Virus record (IMG/VR): IMGVR_UViG_3300043099_000594
Location: 1 to 29,342 of that record
Length of the DNA stretch: 29,342 nucleotides
Strand: one strand, 5' to 3'
Source of the DNA: a virus
Shown here: positions 4,168-28,527 of the stretch, in pieces
Position numbering within the stretch: position 1 is the first letter of the stretch
Layout: every line of letters starts with the position of its first letter
Program-made: the position numbers and the translations under genes
Notes under the pieces: generated by a model
The model's input: only the letters and a program-made list of their open reading frames with translations
Told to the model about the DNA's origin: nothing
The model's database searches: none

Positions 4168-4175
4168 TATTTATG
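4168..4175 (-). promoter_or_regulatory. T4-type late promoter (CATAAATA)
   Basis: CATAAATA on the minus strand includes the TAA stop codon of the collagen-like gene (4171-4173). It sits 14 nt before the ATG at 4153. Only the first base departs from TATAAATA. Confidence 0.55.
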
Positions 4176-7100
4176 GTTGAGATAAATCTTCTATTTTTTT
4201 GTTCAATTCATTAATCTCTTGCTTCAATTCTTTTATTGCTTCTACAAGAATAGCAACAAAGTTTTGATAAGCAACAGTCTTAAATATTTCATTATTAGAA
4301 TCTAATTGGTTTGTCACCAATTCTGGAATTATCTTTTCAACTTCTTGTGCAATAAATCCAATAGATTTGCCACCATGCTCTTTATATGTAAATTCAACAC
4401 CCCTCAGTTTTAATACTTTATCTAATGCATCTGTTATAACAGAAATATCAGTTTTTAATTTTTCATCAGAAGATGCACTGACTGTACCACCAACTACAAG
4501 GTCTCCAGTAGAGGCATTAAATGAAAATGCAGTTGCTGTAGTTCTTACTCTTGCGGTTTGATTAAACCCAGCAGCAGCTACAAATACTGGATAATATGTA
4601 TCATTTGTTGTTGTATTTGTAGCATTTATTTCAGTTGATGGGCCTGTAGCACCTTGAGCACCTTGAGGTCCAATTCCTTGAGGACCTTGAGAACCTTGAG
4701 CACCTGTAGAACCTGTAGCACCTTGTGCACCTGCAGCACCCTGAGCACCTGTAGTGCCTGCAGCACCTTGTGCACCTTGAGGTCCTCTTGAACCTTGAGA
4801 ACCTTGAGCACCATCAACCCCAATACCAGAAGAACCTTGAGCACCTTGAGGTCCTCTTAAACCCAGTGCCCCTTGAGAACCTGTAGCTCCCTGTGCACCT
4901 TGAGGTCCTGGTGTTCCTTGAGGTCCAGTTCCTTGAGGACCTTGAGCACCTTGTGCACCTTGAGGTCCTCTAAGTCCTTGTGCTCCTTGAGCACCTGTAG
5001 AACCTGTAGTACCTTGTGCACCTTGTGCTCCTTGTGCACCTTGAGGTCCAAAACCTTGAAGTCCTTGAACACCTTGTGCACCTTGAGGTCCTCTAGCTCC
5101 TTGAGCACCTTGAGCACCTGCAGTACCTTGAGCACCTTGTGGTCCTTGTGGTCCTTGTGGTCCTCTTACGCCTTGTGGTCCAACAGGTCCTCTAATTTGA
5201 CCAACATTACCCCAACTTGTAGTGGCGATACCAACTGTTGCAACCCACAAATTACCTAAATTAATATCAAGAACACCATCTCCAGATTGTGCAGGATACC
5301 AAGAATTTACATCCTCATTCAGTTGATATGTTTCAATACCAACAGTTAACGCCTTACTTCCTACAATAGTTATAGAAGTTCCAGTAGCACCTTGTGCACC
5401 TTGAGGTCCTTGTGCACCTTGAGGCCCTTGAGGTCCCTGGAATCCTTGAGAACCCTGTGCTCCTGTAGAACCTTGAGGTCCTCTTATACCTTGTGGTCCT
5501 AAAGAACCAGAATTTCCTTGAACACCTTGAGAACCTTGAGGTCCTATTGAACCTTGAGCACCTTGAGGACCAACTCTTCCCTGTGGACCTTGAGCACCTT
5601 GAGGTCCTGCTGTTCCTACAGCACCACTAGAACCTTGAGCACCTTGAGGTCCAACTCTTCCCTGTGGACCTTGAGCACCTTGTGGACCTTGAGGTCCAGT
5701 TCCTTGTGGACCTTGGAATCCTTGTGGACCTTGGAATCCTTGAAGACCTTGGAATCCTTGAGCACCTTGTGGCCCTTGAAGTCCTGTATTTCCTTGGAAT
5801 CCTTGAGCACCTTGTGGTCCAGTTCCTTGTGGACCTTGTACTCCTTGTGGACCTTGGAATCCTTGAGCACCTTGTGGTCCAGTTCCTTGTGGACCTTGTA
5901 CTCCTTGTGGACCTTGGAATCCTTGTGGACCTTGAGGACCTCTAACTCCCTGAAATCCTTGAGCACCTTGTGGTCCTTGTAAACCTTGGAATCCTTGTGA
6001 ACCTTGAGGTCCAATTATTCCCTGAAATCCTTGAGCACCTGTAATTCCAGGAGATCCTTGAGGTCCTGTAAGACCTTGAGATCCTTGTGGGCCTTGTACT
6101 CCCACTGAACCTTGAGTACCCTGAGCACCTGTAGCTCCCTGTGCTCCTGTAGAACCTGTAGTGCCTTGAGCACCTGCAGAACCTGCAGAACCTTGAGCAC
6201 CTGCAACACCTTGTGCTCCTTGAGCACCTGTAGAACCTTGAGCCCCTGATATACCTTGAGCACCTGCAGTTCCTTGAGCACCTGCAGTTCCTTGAGCACC
6301 TGCAGTTCCTTGTGCACCTGCAGTTCCTTGAGCACCTTGAGCACCTGTAGATCCTGTAGCACCTTGTGCTCCTGCAGAACCTTGAGCACCTGTAGATCCT
6401 GTAGATCCCTGTGCTCCTGCAGCACCTTGAGCACCTGCAGCACCTTGAGCACCTGCAGTACCTTGAGCACCTACAGCACCTTGAGGTCCAAACCCCTGAA
6501 GACCTTGAACACCTTGTGCACCTGCAGCACCTTGAGCTCCTGAAGAACCTTGAGAACCTACAGCACCCTGAGCACCTGTATTTCCTTGTGCTCCTTGTGG
6601 TCCAATGGAACCTTGTGGTCCAATAGGTCCTCTAATTTGTCCAACATTAGTCCAACTTGTGGTAGCAAGTCCAACAGCAGCAACCCAAAGATTTCCTAAG
6701 TTGTTGTCAAGAACACCATTGCCATTTTGAGCAGGATACCAAGAATTTAATTGTTCATTTAATTGATATGTTTCAATTCCAACAGTTAATGATTTGCTTC
6801 CTACAATAGTTACAGAAGTTCCAGATTGTCCTTGTGCACCTTGTGGACCTACAAAACCTTGAGGACCTTGAAATCCTTGAGGACCTTGTGCACCTTGTGG
6901 TCCAACTCCTTGAGGTCCTTGAGGTCCAATTCCTCCTTGTGGCCCTTGAGCACCTTGAGGTCCTGATATTCCTACACCACCACTAGCACCTTGAGCACCT
7001 TGAGGTCCTATGAAACCTTGTGCACCTGCAGTTCCTTGTGCACCTGCAGTTCCTTGTGCTCCTTGAGGACCCTGAAATCCTTGAGATCCTTGTACTCCTT

Positions 7101-8049
7101 GTGCACCTTGAGGTCCTATAGAACCTTGAGCACCTGCAGTTCCTTGAGCCCCTGCAGCACCTTGTGCTCCTTGAGGACCCTGAAATCCTTGAGATCCTTG
7201 TGCTCCTTGTGCACCTTGAGGTCCAATAGAACCCTGAGGTCCTATATCACCTTGTGCTCCTTGAGGTCCAATTGAACCTTGAGGTCCTATAGAACCCTGA
7301 GGACCTATATCACCTTGTGCTCCTTGAGGTCCTTGAGGTCCTTGAAATCCTTGTGGACCAATAGGTCCTTGAGGACCTTGAAGACCTTGAAATCCTTGAG
7401 GTCCAAGAGGTCCTGAAGCATATGCCCAAGTAAACCCTAATCCTGGTCCAAGAGATGTTAATACTTCTGCATATGTACCAGTTATACCATCTCTATTAAC
7501 AATGTCTGCACTAATTCTTACATTAGCATTAATATCTACTGGATAAGCTGGCTGAGTATTAGCAATCCCCAGATTTCCACTACTTGGAACAAAAACTAAA
7601 GATGATGGTGCAATTTCAAAAGAAGTTAAAGCAGCACCAGCTCTTTCGCTAGTAAATCCTAAATATCTTACTCTAGAATCAGTGGGTTCTAATATAGGAG
7701 GGTTGGAAATTGTAATAGTGGCAATGCCAATAGCTGCATCAGCAGTTGCTACTACACCAAGACCAACAAAATTCAGTTGAGAAATAGAACCTGCAACACC
7801 TACAATGGTTCCTTCATCTCTAACTGTAATACCTTGAGAAAATACTGCAGGTGGAACAGGAATCCAATATCTTTGGGGATATCCAGGAACACTTACAGGA
7901 AAATATTGCGTTCCAATAGGTACATTACCATCGCCAGGAGGTTGTCCTAAGTTAGGCTCAGCATCAGCAATCCTTAAAAAATCGTATCTACTTGCTGGTA
8001 GTTTTGCTGCTGGAGTTGTTGGTACTCTTCTACTTAAATACTTAGCCAT
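4171..8049 (-). CDS. Collagen-like tail fibre with C-terminal S74 intramolecular chaperone (1292 aa)
   Basis: Residues 1-210 form a non-repetitive head, probably the virion-attachment part. From about 213 to 1135 the chain is collagen-like Gly-X-Y, dominated by GPQGAQG, GFQG and GAQG units. It is broken by two copies of a domain of about 65 residues (about 406-474 and 889-953, each with VGIETYQLNE, NSWYPAQ, NLWVA and TTSW motifs). A linker of about 55 residues leads to an S74 endosialidase-type chaperone at 1193-1292, which starts SSDEKLKTDI and contains IGFIAQEVEKIIPELV and VEAIKELKQEI. Family knowledge says that S74 domains drive trimerisation and then self-cleave just before a conserved Ser in the S-D motif. 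A 5' late promoter and a leader like that of the 945-residue gene precede it. It is probably a long trimeric side fibre. Confidence 0.85.
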   Translation of the reverse strand: MAKYLSRRVPTTPAAKLPASRYDFLRIADAEPNLGQPPGDGNVPIGTQYFPVSVPGYPQRYWIPVPPAVFSQGITVRDEGTIVGVAGSISQLNFVGLGVVATADAAIGIATITISNPPILEPTDSRVRYLGFTSERAGAALTSFEIAPSSLVFVPSSGNLGIANTQPAYPVDINANVRISADIVNRDGITGTYAEVLTSLGPGLGFTWAYASGPLGPQGFQGLQGPQGPIGPQGFQGPQGPQGAQGDIGPQGSIGPQGSIGPQGAQGDIGPQGSIGPQGAQGAQGSQGFQGPQGAQGAAGAQGTAGAQGSIGPQGAQGVQGSQGFQGPQGAQGTAGAQGTAGAQGFIGPQGAQGASGGVGISGPQGAQGPQGGIGPQGPQGVGPQGAQGPQGFQGPQGFVGPQGAQGQSGTSVTIVGSKSLTVGIETYQLNEQLNSWYPAQNGNGVLDNNLGNLWVAAVGLATTSWTNVGQIRGPIGPQGSIGPQGAQGNTGAQGAVGSQGSSGAQGAAGAQGVQGLQGFGPQGAVGAQGTAGAQGAAGAQGAAGAQGSTGSTGAQGSAGAQGATGSTGAQGAQGTAGAQGTAGAQGTAGAQGTAGAQGISGAQGSTGAQGAQGVAGAQGSAGSAGAQGTTGSTGAQGATGAQGTQGSVGVQGPQGSQGLTGPQGSPGITGAQGFQGIIGPQGSQGFQGLQGPQGAQGFQGVRGPQGPQGFQGPQGVQGPQGTGPQGAQGFQGPQGVQGPQGTGPQGAQGFQGNTGLQGPQGAQGFQGLQGFQGPQGFQGPQGTGPQGPQGAQGPQGRVGPQGAQGSSGAVGTAGPQGAQGPQGRVGPQGAQGSIGPQGSQGVQGNSGSLGPQGIRGPQGSTGAQGSQGFQGPQGPQGAQGPQGAQGATGTSITIVGSKALTVGIETYQLNEDVNSWYPAQSGDGVLDINLGNLWVATVGIATTSWGNVGQIRGPVGPQGVRGPQGPQGPQGAQGTAGAQGAQGARGPQGAQGVQGLQGFGPQGAQGAQGAQGTTGSTGAQGAQGLRGPQGAQGAQGPQGTGPQGTPGPQGAQGATGSQGALGLRGPQGAQGSSGIGVDGAQGSQGSRGPQGAQGAAGTTGAQGAAGAQGATGSTGAQGSQGPQGIGPQGAQGATGPSTEINATNTTTNDTYYPVFVAAAGFNQTARVRTTATAFSFNASTGDLVVGGTVSASSDEKLKTDISVITDALDKVLKLRGVEFTYKEHGGKSIGFIAQEVEKIIPELVTNQLDSNNEIFKTVAYQNFVAILVEAIKELKQEINELNKKIEDLSQP
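4640..7413 (-). repeat. Collagen-like 9-bp-based tandem repeat tract
   Basis: About 2.8 kb of degenerate tandem units encode Gly-Pro-Gln-Gly-Ala-Gln and variants. They read in the minus frame as GGT-GCT-CAA-like codons. The tract is broken by two non-repetitive islands of about 200 bp (about 6626-6832 and 5189-5383), which are copies of each other. Long spurious open frames on the other strands arise from the repeat periodicity. Confidence 0.85.
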
Positions 8050-18283: not shown

Positions 18284-18943
18284 TCAAGAGCAGCACTCTG
18301 CAAGTTTGGTGGACAGTTCCTGAACTGTCTGCTTGAGGGAATTGATCTGTTCTTGTTGTTCTTTAATCGCCTCTACAAGAACAGCAGTTAAGTTTTGATA
18401 ATGAACTAATTTAGTTTTTTCTGAATTTTCATCTACAAGTTCTGGAATTACTTGTTCTACTTGTTGTGCAATTAATCCATATTCGTGCTTTTCATAATCA
18501 GTCCTATCATATTCCATACCTTGCAACTTCAAAACTTTATCTAAAGAATTTTGAAGAGGTTTTATATTTACTTTAAATTTAATGTCTGATACTGTTTGTA
18601 TAGGTACTCCATTTAACTTCCAACTTCCAAGAAGATTGCCATTTGGAGAACTATGCTTTGCAGTAGGAGTTGCATTGTCTTGTTTTGGTTCTGCATTTGC
18701 TTGCCCACCAACACCAGTTTTAAATCCAAGCAAATTACTAAGACCAGTAATAGATTGTAGTCCTATACCATTATACAAACCAATTTGATTTGTCAGTGCT
18801 ACAAAATTATTAATACCATTAACTTGTTGTGAAAATGGCACAGTTGGATCTAAAGATGGCCAAATATCTACAGCAGCAATAGCAGGAGCAAGAGCTGTCC
18901 CAACCTGAATTGATTCAGTTTCTATGGTATTAATGTTTGCCAT
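18284..18943 (-). CDS. Short protein with C-terminal S74 intramolecular chaperone (219 aa)
   Basis: The first 118 residues are Ala/Gly/Asn-rich with repeated Leu-Gly segments (GLQSITGLSNLLGF) and no recognised domain. From Ser119 (SDIKFKVNI) to the end it is a complete S74 endosialidase-type chaperone: LDKVLKLQGMEYDR, YGLIAQQVEQVIPELV, VHYQNLTAVLVEAIKEQQ and a C-terminal helix. It is closely similar to the S74 domain of the collagen-like fibre (LDKVLKLRGVEF, EVEKIIPELV). Autocleavage before Ser119 would release a small trimer-forming protein. It follows the spike gene by 2 nt, so I infer a role at the tail tip or a short fibre rather than in a long fibre. Confidence 0.8.
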   Translation of the reverse strand: MANINTIETESIQVGTALAPAIAAVDIWPSLDPTVPFSQQVNGINNFVALTNQIGLYNGIGLQSITGLSNLLGFKTGVGGQANAEPKQDNATPTAKHSSPNGNLLGSWKLNGVPIQTVSDIKFKVNIKPLQNSLDKVLKLQGMEYDRTDYEKHEYGLIAQQVEQVIPELVDENSEKTKLVHYQNLTAVLVEAIKEQQEQINSLKQTVQELSTKLAECCS

Positions 18944-23105: not shown

Positions 23106-25091
23106 CTATACAGTATTAAGAAGGACTCTCTTATAGAAACTATTTAACAACTGTTGCTCTGATGGACCTGTCATCATCATAGGAACATCTTCAGATGGCA
23201 TAGGTTGTTGTTGTGGTTGTGACACAGGATAAAATGCCGTGACTTGTTGTTGACTTCCTTGTTGATATGGAAGAAAACTTCCAACAGGTCTTGGTGTTCG
23301 TGGTGGAGGTGTAATTGAAGGAGGTCTACGTGGAGCAGGAGGTTGTTGTCTTTCTAATAGTGAAGCAGCATCAGATTGTCCAATTGCTCTCAATTGTGCT
23401 GCAGTGCTTGGTCTGGAACCAGGAGGTTGTGGTTGTGTTGATTGTTGCTTAACTCTTACATCGCCACCAAATCTAAAAATTCTTGGTGCTATTGCAGTTG
23501 GATCAATTCTTCCTGAACCATTTTCATATTCAAAATGCAAATGCGCTCCTGTAGAGTTTCCAGATCCTGGAGCACCAGGAGCACCACCAACTTTTCCTAT
23601 TACTTGTCCAGGAGAAACTTGAGTTCCTGCTGCAACATTTATTTGACTTAGGTGTGCATACCTACTTATAGACCCATCTTGATGTCTAATCTCAACTACT
23701 GCTCCCCATCCACTGGGGTCATAATTCATATCTGCAACAGTTACAGTTCCTGGTTGTATGATACTGATTGGAGTGCCAACTGATCTATTATAATCGTTCC
23801 CCTTGTGTAGTCTTCCTCCTCTTGGGCCATAAGCAGAATCTGGTCTTCCTGGAACTTCTCCTCCAGTTGCTTCTAAATCTTGAAGGGATTCACCAGTAGT
23901 TAATCCTCTATTTCCAGTTTCAATAACTCCAGACTGTTCCCCACCCATTCCCATACCACCTTTAAATCCTTTAACAAATTCTTCAAATTTATTAACTGCC
24001 TTTTCATAACCATTCAAAGTTTTTCTAAAGGTAAGTGCTCCACCTTCTTCCTTCTTACCCTCAACTGCTTGTTTTTGTTTTTCTGTTTGTTGTTTTAACC
24101 TATTTTGCTGAGATTTATTTGCCAGTGCTTCTTTTTCACTTGAGCCACTTAAATCACGAACAAGATTAGTTACATCTAATGCAAATGATGCAATAGAAAG
24201 TAATCCAGCAACTGGCAATCCAATTCCAGTAGCAGCAGATGCAGCAGCAAGTGCATCTAAAGTTGCTGATGTTCCTGCTATTTTAGCTCCTGTGTAATCA
24301 CCTTCACTTGTTCTCAATCCTGCATCAATAGCCCCAACTGCAGCACCAACGCCTGGAATAATTGCTTTACCAAATCTACCAAATGCTTTTCCAACTTTTG
24401 AGGTGTCTGCCCCATACTTTGCCATTTGCTCTGGACCACCACGAGAAAATGCCCCTGTAGGAGAAATAGTTCCTCTACGAATTAATCTTGCCCTATCACC
24501 AATATTTGCACTACCTTGAATGAATCTTGCTTGTGATGCATTTAATCTACTTATAGACCCTGGTTTTAATGGTTTGGGAGGAGTAACTCCTACTTCAGGA
24601 CCAACACCTCCTCCTCTTCCCCCTCTACCCATCAAAGCACCAGCACCAAATCCCAACAGTGAAGGTCCAAGAGTTAATCCTGCTGCAACTAAACCAGAAG
24701 CTAATGCCCCACCCCAATCACCTTTAGAACCTTTTTGAACTGCTTTAAATGCTGCAAGTGCTCCTATTGCTTTGAGAGGATCATCAGCAGATCCTGGCGT
24801 AAAAAAGTTTCCAACATACTTTTTAATGTCTGGTAACTTAACTTTTACTCTTTGTTTTTTACGAAATGATCTATCATTTTGTTTCTGAATAGTTTCTAAT
24901 CGTTTTTTATATCTGTTTAATACTGAAAGTTGGGTTTTCTTTTGGTAACTTCCCTTTTCAAAAACCTTTCTAAGTTTAGTAGAAGACTTTCTAGCTTCAG
25001 TAGAAACCTCAACAAGATTATTAAACTTCGTAATCTTTGCTACTATTCTTGGTTTTACAACTGGTCTGTTAAGAAGTAATGTTGGGTCCAT
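23106..25091 (-). CDS. Tape-measure-like tail protein with M23 peptidase domain (661 aa)
   Basis: The N-terminal about 90 residues are basic and helical. Then comes KKYVGNFFTPG (90-100) and a Gly/Ala-rich hydrophobic region (105-310) of the kind seen in tape-measure proteins. Residues about 420-535 are an M23 zinc endopeptidase with all motifs intact: H429 and D433 in LHKGND, H480 in YAHLS, and H517-x-H519 in GAHLHFE. M23 enzymes cut peptide bridges in peptidoglycan. The last about 110 residues are Pro/Gln-rich and end SFYKRVLLNTV. It follows the 572-residue gene by 3 nt and shares its N- and C-terminal modules. I infer a tail-lumen or hub component that opens the wall during infection. Confidence 0.8.
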   Translation of the reverse strand: MDPTLLLNRPVVKPRIVAKITKFNNLVEVSTEARKSSTKLRKVFEKGSYQKKTQLSVLNRYKKRLETIQKQNDRSFRKKQRVKVKLPDIKKYVGNFFTPGSADDPLKAIGALAAFKAVQKGSKGDWGGALASGLVAAGLTLGPSLLGFGAGALMGRGGRGGGVGPEVGVTPPKPLKPGSISRLNASQARFIQGSANIGDRARLIRRGTISPTGAFSRGGPEQMAKYGADTSKVGKAFGRFGKAIIPGVGAAVGAIDAGLRTSEGDYTGAKIAGTSATLDALAAASAATGIGLPVAGLLSIASFALDVTNLVRDLSGSSEKEALANKSQQNRLKQQTEKQKQAVEGKKEEGGALTFRKTLNGYEKAVNKFEEFVKGFKGGMGMGGEQSGVIETGNRGLTTGESLQDLEATGGEVPGRPDSAYGPRGGRLHKGNDYNRSVGTPISIIQPGTVTVADMNYDPSGWGAVVEIRHQDGSISRYAHLSQINVAAGTQVSPGQVIGKVGGAPGAPGSGNSTGAHLHFEYENGSGRIDPTAIAPRIFRFGGDVRVKQQSTQPQPPGSRPSTAAQLRAIGQSDAASLLERQQPPAPRRPPSITPPPRTPRPVGSFLPYQQGSQQQVTAFYPVSQPQQQPMPSEDVPMMMTGPSEQQLLNSFYKRVLLNTV

Positions 25092-25094
25092 TTA

Positions 25095-26813
25095 TCAAAC
25101 AATCTGATAGATTAGTTTAGAATACAAAGCCAAGAAGTTTTCAGGATAAGTAGTATCTATTGATGGAACAGTATCATTTCCTCCAGAAACTGCAGATGCT
25201 TGGGAAGATTGTTGTTGAGTTGGTAAAGGAAGAACTGTAACTTGTGTTTGTGGTGCTCTTGGAGCAGCAGTTGCTGCAGATCTTGGTGCTGGTGCAACAG
25301 GACTTATTGGTGGTGTTACAGTTCCAGGAGATGATATTTGCCCTAAGAAAGTTTGAAATCTTCTATAAAAATCTGATGTATGAACATTTTCTTGAGATCC
25401 TCCAGGAAGAGATGGCCAAACTCCTTTTAATTTATTCACTACTTCATTGATTTTACCTGACCTAATTAAATTAACTATTTCCTGTTCTCCTCCAGAAAAA
25501 AGACCGGCAAGATATGCTCTATTAATTTTGTATTGATTTTCTTGATTATACAATGCTGTTGATGGATCTAACCCTGCTGCTATAGCTCTTTCTCTCAAGT
25601 AATAAGACATTTGCTGCATGTTGCCCATAGCCCCTGAGGTTTTACCTTGTGCTCTGAATGATTCAACTTTTGATATGGCTTCATCAATAGTCATTTGAGA
25701 CAAACCAGGCATAGGACCTATTTTATTAACTGATTCTAATCCACCTTCTGCTCCAGAAATTGCTGACATCAAAGCATTAATTTCTCCAGGGGCAGGTCCT
25801 GACATAATTTGACCAGGAGGGGGAGGAGCACCCCCACCTCCTCCACCTCCTCTCCCACCTGTTTTTTGAGGTTGCCTGTCTTGTTCTTTTTGTTTGCCTA
25901 ATAAAAAGTCAAGTGCTGCTTCAAATTTTTTGTTTAATTTTTCGAATCTCCTCAAATCATCTTGTGGAATTGGAACTAAATTTCCAGGTTCTACTGATGC
26001 TTTTTGTTGTTGTGTAAGTTCTTCTAATCTTTGTTGTGATTGATCTTCTTGTGGTCTATTGAAGATACTACTTGCTAATGCAATTCCTCCACCAACAAGT
26101 GCAGCTCTTCCACCAAATTTACCCAATCTTCCAAGTGCTCCCCCTGCTCCAGCTGCTGCAGGAGCTGCTGATGCTGCTGCTCTTGTTGCTGCCCCACCTC
26201 CAAATAACTTCCCAACCAAAGATGTTGCTACTGCACCAGCAATTCCAGCACCAATAGCAGGAAGATATGTTAATCCTATTCCAAGAAGTGGTCCAATAAT
26301 TTTAGATGGGTCTCCAGATAAAATCCCCTGCATCAAATTAAACATAGAGAGTGCTCTGATAGCACCTCCAGCACCACTAAAGAATGACCCTACATATTTT
26401 TTAACTGCACCAAGAACATCAGATTTCTTATCTCCTAACTCTTTCTTACCAAATAATCTACCTCTATTTGCAACTCTTTTTCTAAAATCTTCTATTTCTT
26501 TTTTATTTGTATCTTGAGTTTCTTTATAATCTTGAAGAATAATTGATGCAATTCTATCAAGATTATTGTTGACAATCTCAAGGTCTAAAGTCAATCTTCC
26601 TAAAGAAGAAATAACTCTTTTTGGCGCTCCAATTTCTGGATCTGTTTGTTCAGAAGACCCAGATACAATTTGTTGAGGGACTTGTCTTTTTGGAAACATC
26701 CCAGCAATTCTTGTGAGTTTTGGCGTAGCAGAGAATCCAAATTTACTTCTGGAACTTGCTCCTGAAATAAATCTAGATACTCTATCTTTAAATCCAAAAT
26801 CTCCTGGAGTCAT
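25095..26813 (-). CDS. Tape-measure-like tail protein with lambda-R-like transglycosylase domain (572 aa)
   Basis: A basic N-terminus leads to KKYVGSFFSG (138-147) and then a long Gly/Ala-rich hydrophobic stretch (148-250, e.g. GPLLGIGLTYLPAIGAGIAG) typical of tape measures. After a poly-Gly/Pro linker (319-334), residues about 343-492 resemble the lambda R endolysin fold: SGAEGG with probable catalytic Glu356, a central helical part, and VWPSLPGGSQ matching the lambda R motif IWASLPG. Such enzymes cleave the glycan strands of peptidoglycan. The end is FLALYSKLIYQIV. Its ATG follows directly on the stop of the gp51-like frame. Its length is close to that of T4 gp29 (590 aa), so it may be the tape measure itself. 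Confidence 0.7.
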   Translation of the reverse strand: MTPGDFGFKDRVSRFISGASSRSKFGFSATPKLTRIAGMFPKRQVPQQIVSGSSEQTDPEIGAPKRVISSLGRLTLDLEIVNNNLDRIASIILQDYKETQDTNKKEIEDFRKRVANRGRLFGKKELGDKKSDVLGAVKKYVGSFFSGAGGAIRALSMFNLMQGILSGDPSKIIGPLLGIGLTYLPAIGAGIAGAVATSLVGKLFGGGAATRAAASAAPAAAGAGGALGRLGKFGGRAALVGGGIALASSIFNRPQEDQSQQRLEELTQQQKASVEPGNLVPIPQDDLRRFEKLNKKFEAALDFLLGKQKEQDRQPQKTGGRGGGGGGGAPPPPGQIMSGPAPGEINALMSAISGAEGGLESVNKIGPMPGLSQMTIDEAISKVESFRAQGKTSGAMGNMQQMSYYLRERAIAAGLDPSTALYNQENQYKINRAYLAGLFSGGEQEIVNLIRSGKINEVVNKLKGVWPSLPGGSQENVHTSDFYRRFQTFLGQISSPGTVTPPISPVAPAPRSAATAAPRAPQTQVTVLPLPTQQQSSQASAVSGGNDTVPSIDTTYPENFLALYSKLIYQIV

Positions 26814-26996
26814 TTATTTTACTCTTGATGCTTTTTCTTCTTCTTCTTTGATATGATTTTCTAAAAGAGTTAAGTAGATTTCACGTTCCCACGGCATCAT
26901 ATTTTCAATCTCAGTCAAAGAGTATTTATGATACTGCATCAAGGCAAAATTAACTCTATAATAAGACTCCAAATCTTCATGACTAAGGACTATCCG
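26814..26996 (-). CDS. gp51: gp51-like frameshift extension of gp26
   Basis: In the -1 frame relative to gp26, 60 sense codons run from 26996 to a TAA at 26816-26814, directly before the ATG of the next gene. The peptide begins RIVLSHEDLESYYRVNFALM and goes on with QYHKYSLTEIENMMPWEREI and YLTLLENHIKEEEE. It is strongly protein-like and resembles the second half of tail-assembly chaperones, or gp51 by position. There is no ATG, GTG or TTG ahead of the conserved part; the first ATG is codon 20, and the frame is closed by TGA upstream in gp26. Expression therefore most plausibly comes from a -1 frameshift, giving a 302-residue gp26-gp51 fusion. Confidence 0.75.
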   Translation of the reverse strand, partial: RIVLSHEDLESYYRVNFALMQYHKYSLTEIENMMPWEREIYLTLLENHIKEEEEKASRVK

Positions 26997-27721
26997 AAAA
27001 AACTTGAGAGTCCCTCCAATACAATTTCATTCTCAACGCCAGTGTTTGGATTCTTAACTGTTAATGTGTGAGAAAGTTTAGGCATAGTATCAAAGAACTC
27101 TTCAATACCTTTGAATTGATTTGAATCAAATGTCTGTAACCATTCAATCAATTCTTTCTTAGTAACATCAGCAGCAGACCAAGATTCATCTTTGGTATAA
27201 ACCATATCCACACAAGATGCAACAATATCAAATGATTTGTCAATAGTTTCTTTACTTCCAGTTTGTCCAGAGAAATCAAAATTATTATCAATAAACTCTT
27301 GAAGTGATGGATACTTCATCTTAACTGTAATACTATCATCAACTTTAATTTCAGATGTATGATTTTCTGGAATTACAACTTCAATCTCATCAATATTAAC
27401 AGTAACATCTACACGTGTTTCATTATCATCTGGACAGGTGATGATTAATTCTACTGATTCTCCAACTGACTTTGCTCTAATATTTAAAAACAGATACTCA
27501 ATATCAAAACTTGGAAGAGAATCAATCTTAATGCCTCTGGTTAAAATACAATCTTTCAATGTATTCTTAACTGCATTAGTAATATCTTTTGAATTACCAC
27601 TTTCCATAGCCAAGATAAGAATCTTTTCTTCCTTGACTAAGAAAGGTCTGTACTTAATAGTCTTTTTGTTTGATGGTAATGTCAACTCATAGGTTGGAGT
27701 TGCAACTGTAGGTAAAGGCAT
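26990..27721 (-). CDS. gp26: gp26-like baseplate hub / tail assembly chaperone (243 aa)
   Basis: It begins MPLPTVATPTYELTLPSNKK, then TIKYRPFLVKEEKILILAME, the hallmark of the T4-type gp26 baseplate family. Later parts contain IEYLFLNIRAKSVGE and a zinc-free LIITCPDD beta region. The C-terminal half is helical (WSAADVTKKELIEWLQTF; IEEFFDTMPKLSHTLTVKN). The protein helps assemble the hub and is probably not a major virion component. It stops at TAG (26990-26992), two codons after a TTTTTTC slippery site. It has a late promoter upstream and lies just before the tape-measure-like genes. This is the same position as G/GT chaperones in other tailed phages. Confidence 0.85.
   Translation of the reverse strand: MPLPTVATPTYELTLPSNKKTIKYRPFLVKEEKILILAMESGNSKDITNAVKNTLKDCILTRGIKIDSLPSFDIEYLFLNIRAKSVGESVELIITCPDDNETRVDVTVNIDEIEVVIPENHTSEIKVDDSITVKMKYPSLQEFIDNNFDFSGQTGSKETIDKSFDIVASCVDMVYTKDESWSAADVTKKELIEWLQTFDSNQFKGIEEFFDTMPKLSHTLTVKNPNTGVENEIVLEGLSSFFG
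26996..27017 (-). promoter_or_regulatory. -1 programmed frameshift signal (GGAGGG + TTTTTTC)
   Basis: The heptamer T TTT TTC (27002-26996) is read by gp26 as AGT-TTT-TTC. This is the X-XXY-YYZ layout in which both tRNA-Phe can re-pair one base back. Nine nt upstream is GGAGGG (27017-27012), an internal Shine-Dalgarno-like stimulator in the same geometry as in E. coli dnaX. The gp26 stop follows two codons later. No clear downstream hairpin was seen. Confidence 0.75.
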
Positions 27722-27747: not shown

Positions 27748-27755
27748 TATTTATC
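27748..27755 (-). promoter_or_regulatory. T4-type late promoter (GATAAATA)
   Basis: GATAAATA on the minus strand contains the TAA stop of the tube-initiator-like gene (27751-27753). It lies 26 nt upstream of the gp26 ATG. It would drive the gp26-gp51-tape measure-hub unit. Confidence 0.6.
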
Positions 27756-28527
27756 CCACATCTCTTGGGTTAGGATTTAATCCAGTGATAGGAATATTTT
27801 CATTAATCAATCTAACTTGTCTATTTAATTCCCCCAATGTTGCTCCAGAATCTCCTCCAGGTTGAGCACTTGAATTTCCACCATCACCATTTATTGGTTT
27901 TCCATCAGACTTTTCAAATCTGTAAATATCATAATTAAATGTTACTGTTGTTCTTAATATATTTGCGCCTTCATATGAAACTGGAACTGCAATTACATTA
28001 GTTGGATAAGCATTTCTTAAAATATAAGTGCAGTTACTATCAGGAACATCATATACTCCATTCTCAACTAATCTTTGGTCAGGGGTTCTAAAATTTCTTT
28101 CAAATTTAGTTATAATAACTTCTTTTTTATATCCACTTAATCCATTATTTTGAGGATAATTAAACTTTTGATATGACTCATAAGGAACCCCTGAATTTGG
28201 ACTAATATATCCCATCCAACTTTCAAAAAATCTTAAAATATTATAGTTATTATCAATATAAAAACTTATATCTACAGGAGGATAAACTCTTTTATTTGCA
28301 AATGTTTCTGTGATTCCTTGTCTGTCTCCAAATACTTGCGTGGTTTCATATGAAGTTCCTGGAAGAACTGCCTCATATGCCAAAAAATCTATATCCTTTT
28401 CAAAAGATTGGTTGATACCATCATAGTCAGCACTTACATGCACATTAAAATAATTAGATAAAGAAGGTTTAAATTTCTTTAATATATCATCAGTTTTATA
28501 ATACAACTTAGTGTAATCTACTGCCAT
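27751..28527 (-). CDS. Tube-fold baseplate protein, probable tail-tube initiator (gp54/gp48-like, 258 aa)
   Basis: The sequence fits the tail-tube (gp19-like) fold used by T4 gp54 and gp48. It contains FNVHVSADYDG, FLAYEAVLPGTSYETTQVFG, KRVYPPVDISFYIDNNYNIL and FFESWMGYISP. The late segment has RNAYPTNVIAVPVSYEGANI followed by TTVTFNYDIYRFE, the usual strand pair of tube subunits. The last about 40 residues are Gly/Asn/Ser-rich. It sits immediately upstream of gp26. Of the two T4 names, gp54 (initiator) fits the length better, but the assignment is uncertain. It diverges from gp4 across 31 nt. Confidence 0.65.
   Translation of the reverse strand: MAVDYTKLYYKTDDILKKFKPSLSNYFNVHVSADYDGINQSFEKDIDFLAYEAVLPGTSYETTQVFGDRQGITETFANKRVYPPVDISFYIDNNYNILRFFESWMGYISPNSGVPYESYQKFNYPQNNGLSGYKKEVIITKFERNFRTPDQRLVENGVYDVPDSNCTYILRNAYPTNVIAVPVSYEGANILRTTVTFNYDIYRFEKSDGKPINGDGGNSSAQPGGDSGATLGELNRQVRLINENIPITGLNPNPRDVG

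Follow-up and report, generated by a model that had tools for sequence, protein, structure and literature searches.

The gene 26/51 junction in the window

The stretch of DNA analyzed here (the window) comprises the 29,342 bases of virus record IMGVR_UViG_3300043099_000594, from a relative of the T4-like cyanobacterial phages. On its minus strand, a tail-tube-like gene (27751..28527; phrog_45, 9.1e-34; Phage_TTP_2, 7.2e-14) lies upstream of gene 26 (26990..27721), which encodes a protein of 243 aa. In profile searches, this product matched PF12322 over positions 1 to 218 of 219 (2.1e-75) and phrog_150 (1e-81), and it was assigned to the T4 gp26/PF12322 family. Gene 26 ends with AGT TTT TTC, in which a T TTT TTC slippery heptamer (27002-26996, minus strand) stands in phase, followed by a GGA codon (26995-26993) and the zero-frame stop TAG (26990..26992). 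A Shine-Dalgarno (SD)-like GGAGGG element within the gene (27017-27012, minus strand) precedes the heptamer by a 9-nt spacer, ACTCTCAAG (27011-27003), and is the probable stimulator of a frameshift. Both signals had been named in the original prediction and were found at the spacing it gave.

The -1 frame extension (26814..26996, minus strand) consists of 60 codons and a stop, and its post-slip translation is RIVLSHEDLESYYRVNFALMQYHKYSLTEIENMMPWEREIYLTLLENHIKEEEEKASRVK. As had been predicted, the stop (26816-26814) is immediately followed by the ATG of the next gene, at 26813. The peptide matched phrog_634, "baseplate hub assembly catalyst," over residues 1 to 59 of 61 (5.8e-29), which bore out its description as gp51-like; a second match covered the last 51 positions of phrog_150 (4.3e-9). 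The further claim that this frame has no usable start held for the region running from the preceding -1 frame stop to the slip, where no ATG, GTG, or TTG occurs; past the slip, a TTG is found 10 codons into the frame (26972; 52-aa open reading frame [ORF]) and an ATG 21 codons into it. Starting at either codon would cost the peptide conserved residues.

The next gene (25095..26813, minus strand) encodes a Gly/Ala-rich protein of 572 aa with hydrophobic segments and a weak match to phrog_90 (2e-5). A homologue in one of the surveyed contigs (L050) has a transglycosylase-like stretch, and the gene that follows the 572-aa gene encodes an M23 peptidase domain, which accounts for its matches to some tape-measure families. 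When the family of the 572-aa protein was compared with T4 gp29 by hhalign, no match was obtained (probability, 0.4%). The original prediction placed the junction "just before the tape measure"; the gene that stands there is a plausible tape-measure candidate, its Gly/Ala richness and hydrophobic segments being compatible with such a protein but short of proof. The genes at 23106-25091 and 25095-26813 were also seen to have a domain of about 90 residues in common (hhalign, 93.5%, E 2.3e-7; KKYVGSFF/KKYVGNFF), and a duplication may be the origin of these neighboring tape-measure-like genes.

Conservation of the heptamer and the -1 frame

Loci related to the window were collected in five IMG/VR scans with different gp26 queries (346 loci), to which 19 named phage regions were added, giving 365 loci and, with the window, 366 sequences. 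The loci were chosen by gp26 similarity (the best 80 from each of four scans, plus 26 from the remaining one), which favored relatives of the queries. A total of 358 sequences were scored and 8 were dropped: four of T4 type with gene 26 on the opposite strand (L081, L090, L095, and L096), three in which gene 26 ran off the contig end (L133, L364, and L365), and one that lacked a gp51 match (L343). Because the set held near-duplicates (S-PM2 was present twice), it was also reduced at approximately 90% nucleotide identity to 185 representatives. In every one of the 358 scored loci, a gp51 match followed gene 26 in the -1 frame, and the same frame tally revealed no natural in-frame fusion of 26 and 51.

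The heptamer T TTT TTN was in phase in 355 of the 358 loci (332 with TTTTTTC, 22 with TTTTTTT, and 1 with TTTTTTG) and in 183 of the 185 representatives, 174 of these 183 having exactly T TTT TTC. Conservation of the site across relatives, as the original prediction required, was thus observed. The named phages include 15 outside the T4 type, 13 of which have the heptamer. We considered the possibility that TTT TTC is maintained simply by a Ser-Phe-Phe protein end together with codon bias, gp51 being a decayed fragment. Indeed, the Phe-Phe pair was invariant in an alignment of 67 gp26 sequences. The codons themselves argue otherwise, since TTC is the minority Phe codon in the gene 26 pool (572, versus 1446 TTT) and T TTT TTC is used for only 1 of the 179 Phe-Phe pairs elsewhere in gene 26. 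Synonymous differences at the site, measured in loci that had been selected for the heptamer (183 of 185), were 0.00 at the first Phe codon and 0.08 at the second, compared to 0.22 to 0.77 across the 40 codons upstream; a Phe-Phe pair 31 to 32 codons upstream gave 0.48 and 0.29. As a rough guide that ignores relatedness, multiplying the codon usage probabilities of just the first TTT and the codon ending in T before it gave 10^-64. That the -1 frame matches gp51 in all 358 loci is likewise at odds with a decayed fragment. Together, these sequence comparisons argue strongly against a protein-end effect or a decayed fragment, an explanation to which we give hardly any weight.

The heptamer was missing from three loci, namely, Vibrio phages 1.255.O (L092) and K382 (L099) and a contig that is one base off (L158). 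In the two Vibrio phages, an ATG overlaps the gene 26 stop (TAATG), which counts against the frameshift reading; a switch from frameshifting to re-initiation is possible in these phages. An ATG-started gene 51 with no slippery site is what the original prediction had named as evidence against itself, and such genes do exist in these two relatives, but the heptamer was retained in 355 of the 358 loci. The four T4-type records examined, in which gene 26 is on the other strand and no frameshift occurs at this place, also count against the frameshift reading. In 19 of the 183 representatives (L084 and similar loci), the distance from the first T of the heptamer to the gene 26 stop is 31 nt, as in Pelagibacter phage Mosig, instead of 7 or 10 nt, and therefore the two frames remain open for longer past the slip. 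The first two post-slip residues of the -1 frame were R in 161 of the 183 and I, V, or L in all 183; these residues are not independent evidence, since in most loci they overlap the last codon and the stop of gene 26.

Signals near the slip and starts in the -1 frame

The duplex that the 16S tail could form with the eight codons before the heptamer was scored in the 183 loci. In 179 of these nonredundant loci, the best anti-SD duplex ended 7 to 9 nt before the heptamer, so that the spacing noted for GGAGGG in the window proved to be general. The mean duplex energy was -6.9, compared to -5.5 for synonymous shuffles and -2.2 elsewhere in gene 26 (1469 windows), and an SD tetramer was present before the heptamer in 71% of loci versus 48% of synonymous shuffles. 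The shuffles retained much of both signals, and therefore a protein motif (mostly Glu-Gly) explains most of the signal as well as its fixed place, which counts against the frameshift reading; codon choice appears to add to the signal beyond this motif. Related loci were counted as independent in the SD and codon tests, and the P values are accordingly optimistic.

A conserved RNA stimulator downstream of the heptamer was also considered and rejected. Single-sequence folds there were slightly better than shuffles (mean z, -1.59, versus -0.48 in a control stretch; 90 loci), but consensus folding in five groups gave nothing clearly above column shuffles. The lack of a conserved downstream structure in these folds counts against the frameshift reading.

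A separate gp51 could be made by re-initiation (translational coupling) past the gene 26 stop, in which case the run of T's would be incidental. Such a route is suggested by 133 of the 355 loci, in which an ATG is found among the first eight -1 frame codons, its distance to the first base of the gene 26 stop being 2, 5, or 8 bases. Annotators have taken these early ATGs as gp51 starts in P-SSM2, S-PM2, DLP6, RHph_I46, D484, and ME01; the TAATG of Vibrio phages 1.255.O and K382 is of the same kind. However, none of four types of SD tetramer was found 5 to 15 nt before any of the 133 early ATGs. Moreover, in 203 of the 355 loci, the window among them, none of the first eight codons is an ATG, GTG, or TTG (a further 19 have only GTG or TTG), and a start upstream of the slip was present in a single locus and absent from 354; in 42 of the 355, a -1 frame stop abuts the slip. 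The missing early gp51 start noted in the window is thus the state of more than half of the relatives as well, but not of the 133 loci with an early ATG. No start occurs in the first 17 codons of 109 loci, which comprise 45 representatives. Among these 45 (990 pairs), differences in the -1 frame were 0.36, 0.33, and 0.55 at codon positions 1, 2, and 3, and a His at codon 8 was nearly unchanged, a pattern that we read as a moderate coding signal. Only frameshifting, or a nonstandard start, would account for a coding signal in the absence of a start over 17 codons. Taken with the start counts, this signal leaves re-initiation, at best, as a supplementary route in some members of the group, and maintenance of the heptamer against codon usage likewise argues against it. 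As the sole source of gp51, we consider re-initiation unlikely. Where heptamer and early ATG occur together (133 of the 355 loci), both routes might be used, with a frameshift fusion and a coupled, free gp51 giving three products; such early-ATG loci may indeed release free gp51. This combination is less probable still, given the lack of a nearby SD tetramer, and it is not relevant to the window, where an early ATG is lacking.

Existing gene models were consistent with the prediction that gp51 would be missing or mis-started in ordinary annotation. Of the 15 named phages outside the T4 type, 6 (S-CAM1, DSL-LC03, Aeh1, ACG-2014e, ACG-2014d, and K382) have no gp51 annotation, and for Mosig and Milchi the annotated start is an ATG 32 to 35 bases beyond the first base of the gene 26 stop, so that the first part of the peptide is lost. 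In S-CAM1, ACG-2014d, ACG-2014e, and DSL-LC03, where the gp51 match bore only a "baseplate hub" name, that annotation turned out to be of gene 26 alone, gp51 being unannotated in these genomes.

A putative TAC-N/TAC-NC pair and its T4 counterparts

We conclude, with a probability of roughly 0.9, that a -1 programmed frameshift at the end of gene 26 yields two products, gp26 as the N-terminal form of a tail assembly chaperone (TAC-N) and gp26-51 as the extended form (TAC-NC), the -1 frame peptide being TAC-C. On this frameshift reading, the 16S tail of the ribosome would pair with GGAGGG while gene 26 is being read, and the ribosome would pause over T TTT TTC. In a minority of passes it would slip back by one base, TTT TTC being re-read as TTT TTT, and then bypass the TAG and add 60 residues. 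A single gene would in this way give TAC-N of 243 aa and TAC-NC of 302 aa. If the analogy with gpG/gpGT of lambda holds, a mixture of the two would coat and chaperone the tape measure protein and bring in tube subunits. A direct readout would be available in the C-terminal tryptic peptide of gp26, NPNTGVENEIVLEGLSSFFG, which ends in SSFFG in the short product, whereas the version in the frameshift product ends in SSFFR.

Tailed phages are known to use -1 frameshifting at the tail chaperone gene. In lambda, the short protein gpG and the long protein gpGT come from one gene by a -1 frameshift near its 3' end, beside the tail tube gene. The window has the G/GT-type arrangement, with a heptamer ending a short gene and a C domain in the -1 frame, and the place beside the tail tube gene is common to both. 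The likeness is one of gene arrangement; the lambda slippery site differs from T TTT TTC, and the tape measure downstream in the window is only a candidate. In Escherichia coli dnaX, an SD-like hexamer lies about 10 nt before a homopolymeric slippery heptamer. Gene 26 resembles dnaX in both elements but lacks a conserved downstream stem-loop.

The fold predicted for gp26 was also compared with known chaperones. An AlphaFold2 model built with 67 sequences had a mean pLDDT of 86.7 and a pTM of 0.79. A sequence search of the PDB with the gp26 profile gave no matches at E values up to 1, and Foldseek searches of the PDB with the model gave none at an E value of 0.001 or below, the HK97 tail assembly chaperone (2ob9) appearing at rank 29 (E 2.3). 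VIA-align superposed three structures on residues 1 to 95, 3fgx with a Z of 8.0, 2ob9 with a Z of 7.7 (root mean square deviation, 4.0 over 84 residues), and 3klu (YqbN) with a Z of 7.3, above 5ir0 at 5.0 and the next entry at 3.9; YqbN (3klu) and 3fgx are likewise tail chaperones. Identity to 2ob9 was 6%, and gp26 is about 150 residues longer. The model thus supports a resemblance of the gp26 N-terminal domain to the HK97 chaperone, at Z scores of 7 to 8 that can also be reached by chance arrangement or by unrelated models. In BFVD, 63 entries were matched at an E value of 0.001; among the best 50 of these 63, 19 had baseplate or baseplate-hub names, and the others had no name, the name "uncharacterized," or an unrelated name.

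The two halves of the putative fusion are also found joined in T4. T4 gp51 (249 aa) matched PF12322 at residues 1 to 201 (3.9e-52) and phrog_150 at residues 3 to 248, with the phrog_634 similarity at residues 147 to 246, behind an N domain of the gp26 family; the gp51 proteins of Aeromonas phage phiAS4 and Shewanella phage Thanatos-1 have the same make-up. In T4 gp26 (208 aa), only the N part was matched. In its domains, a gp26-51 fusion of the cyanophage type therefore corresponds to T4 gp51. Since T4 gp51 is a gp26-family protein carrying this C domain, the -1 frame peptide matches phrog_150, whose extra C terminus we infer to derive from T4-type gp51. This make-up and the middling Z scores against HK97 are in line with the original view of gp26 and gp51 as a G/GT-like pair. 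The T4 genes 26 and 51 are on opposite strands, and therefore no frameshift can fuse them; the T4 lineage makes both kinds of protein from these separate genes, whereas the window has one gene with a probable -1 frameshift. A gp51 of T4 type, i.e., a separate gene of about 249 aa with its own N domain, was not found in the window, where only the C domain is present, in the -1 frame.

Frameshifting is reportedly conserved in several T4-like groups, with T4 using genes 26 and 51. The odds seem to us even that the frameshift, with a near-fixed SD-like stimulator and no RNA structure, is ancestral to the cyanophages, Pelagibacter phages, and several other T4-like groups and that it was replaced in the T4 lineage by an N+C duplication into an opposite-strand gene 51. 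If so, a fixed ratio became two independently expressed genes, and the older genetic work on 26 and 51 of T4 as "hub catalyst" genes would concern a chaperone of the tape measure. The frameshift would also account for the absence or odd start of gene 51 in cyanophage genomes, and genes 26 and 51 would have to be joined at T TTT TTC in gene models.

A -1 frameshift chaperone pair in T4-like phages is already in print (Vladimirov, Gautam & Davidson 2022, Virology 566:9-15), and the T4-like gp26/gp51 chaperones reportedly treated there belong to the same protein families as those of the window. PMC12846349 credits Vladimirov et al. (2022) with polyT -1 frameshift signals in T4-like TAC-N and with the TAC-N/TAC-NC pair. 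It also describes, for the Vandenendeviridae and Andersonviridae, which are other phage families, a TAC locus with a -1 frameshift at a T-run ending TAC-N and a downstream ORF in the -1 frame; the motif there is GTTTTT, compared to T TTT TTC in the window. In the titles and abstract openings covered, a body of literature that mostly excludes subscription papers, frameshifting at gene 26/51 in cyanophages was not named.

Elsewhere in the window, reading of the translations revealed a similar C-terminal stretch (LDKVLKL..IPELV..) in the products of 4171-8049, a long collagen-like protein, and 18284-18943; this shared ending resembles an S74-type intramolecular chaperone.
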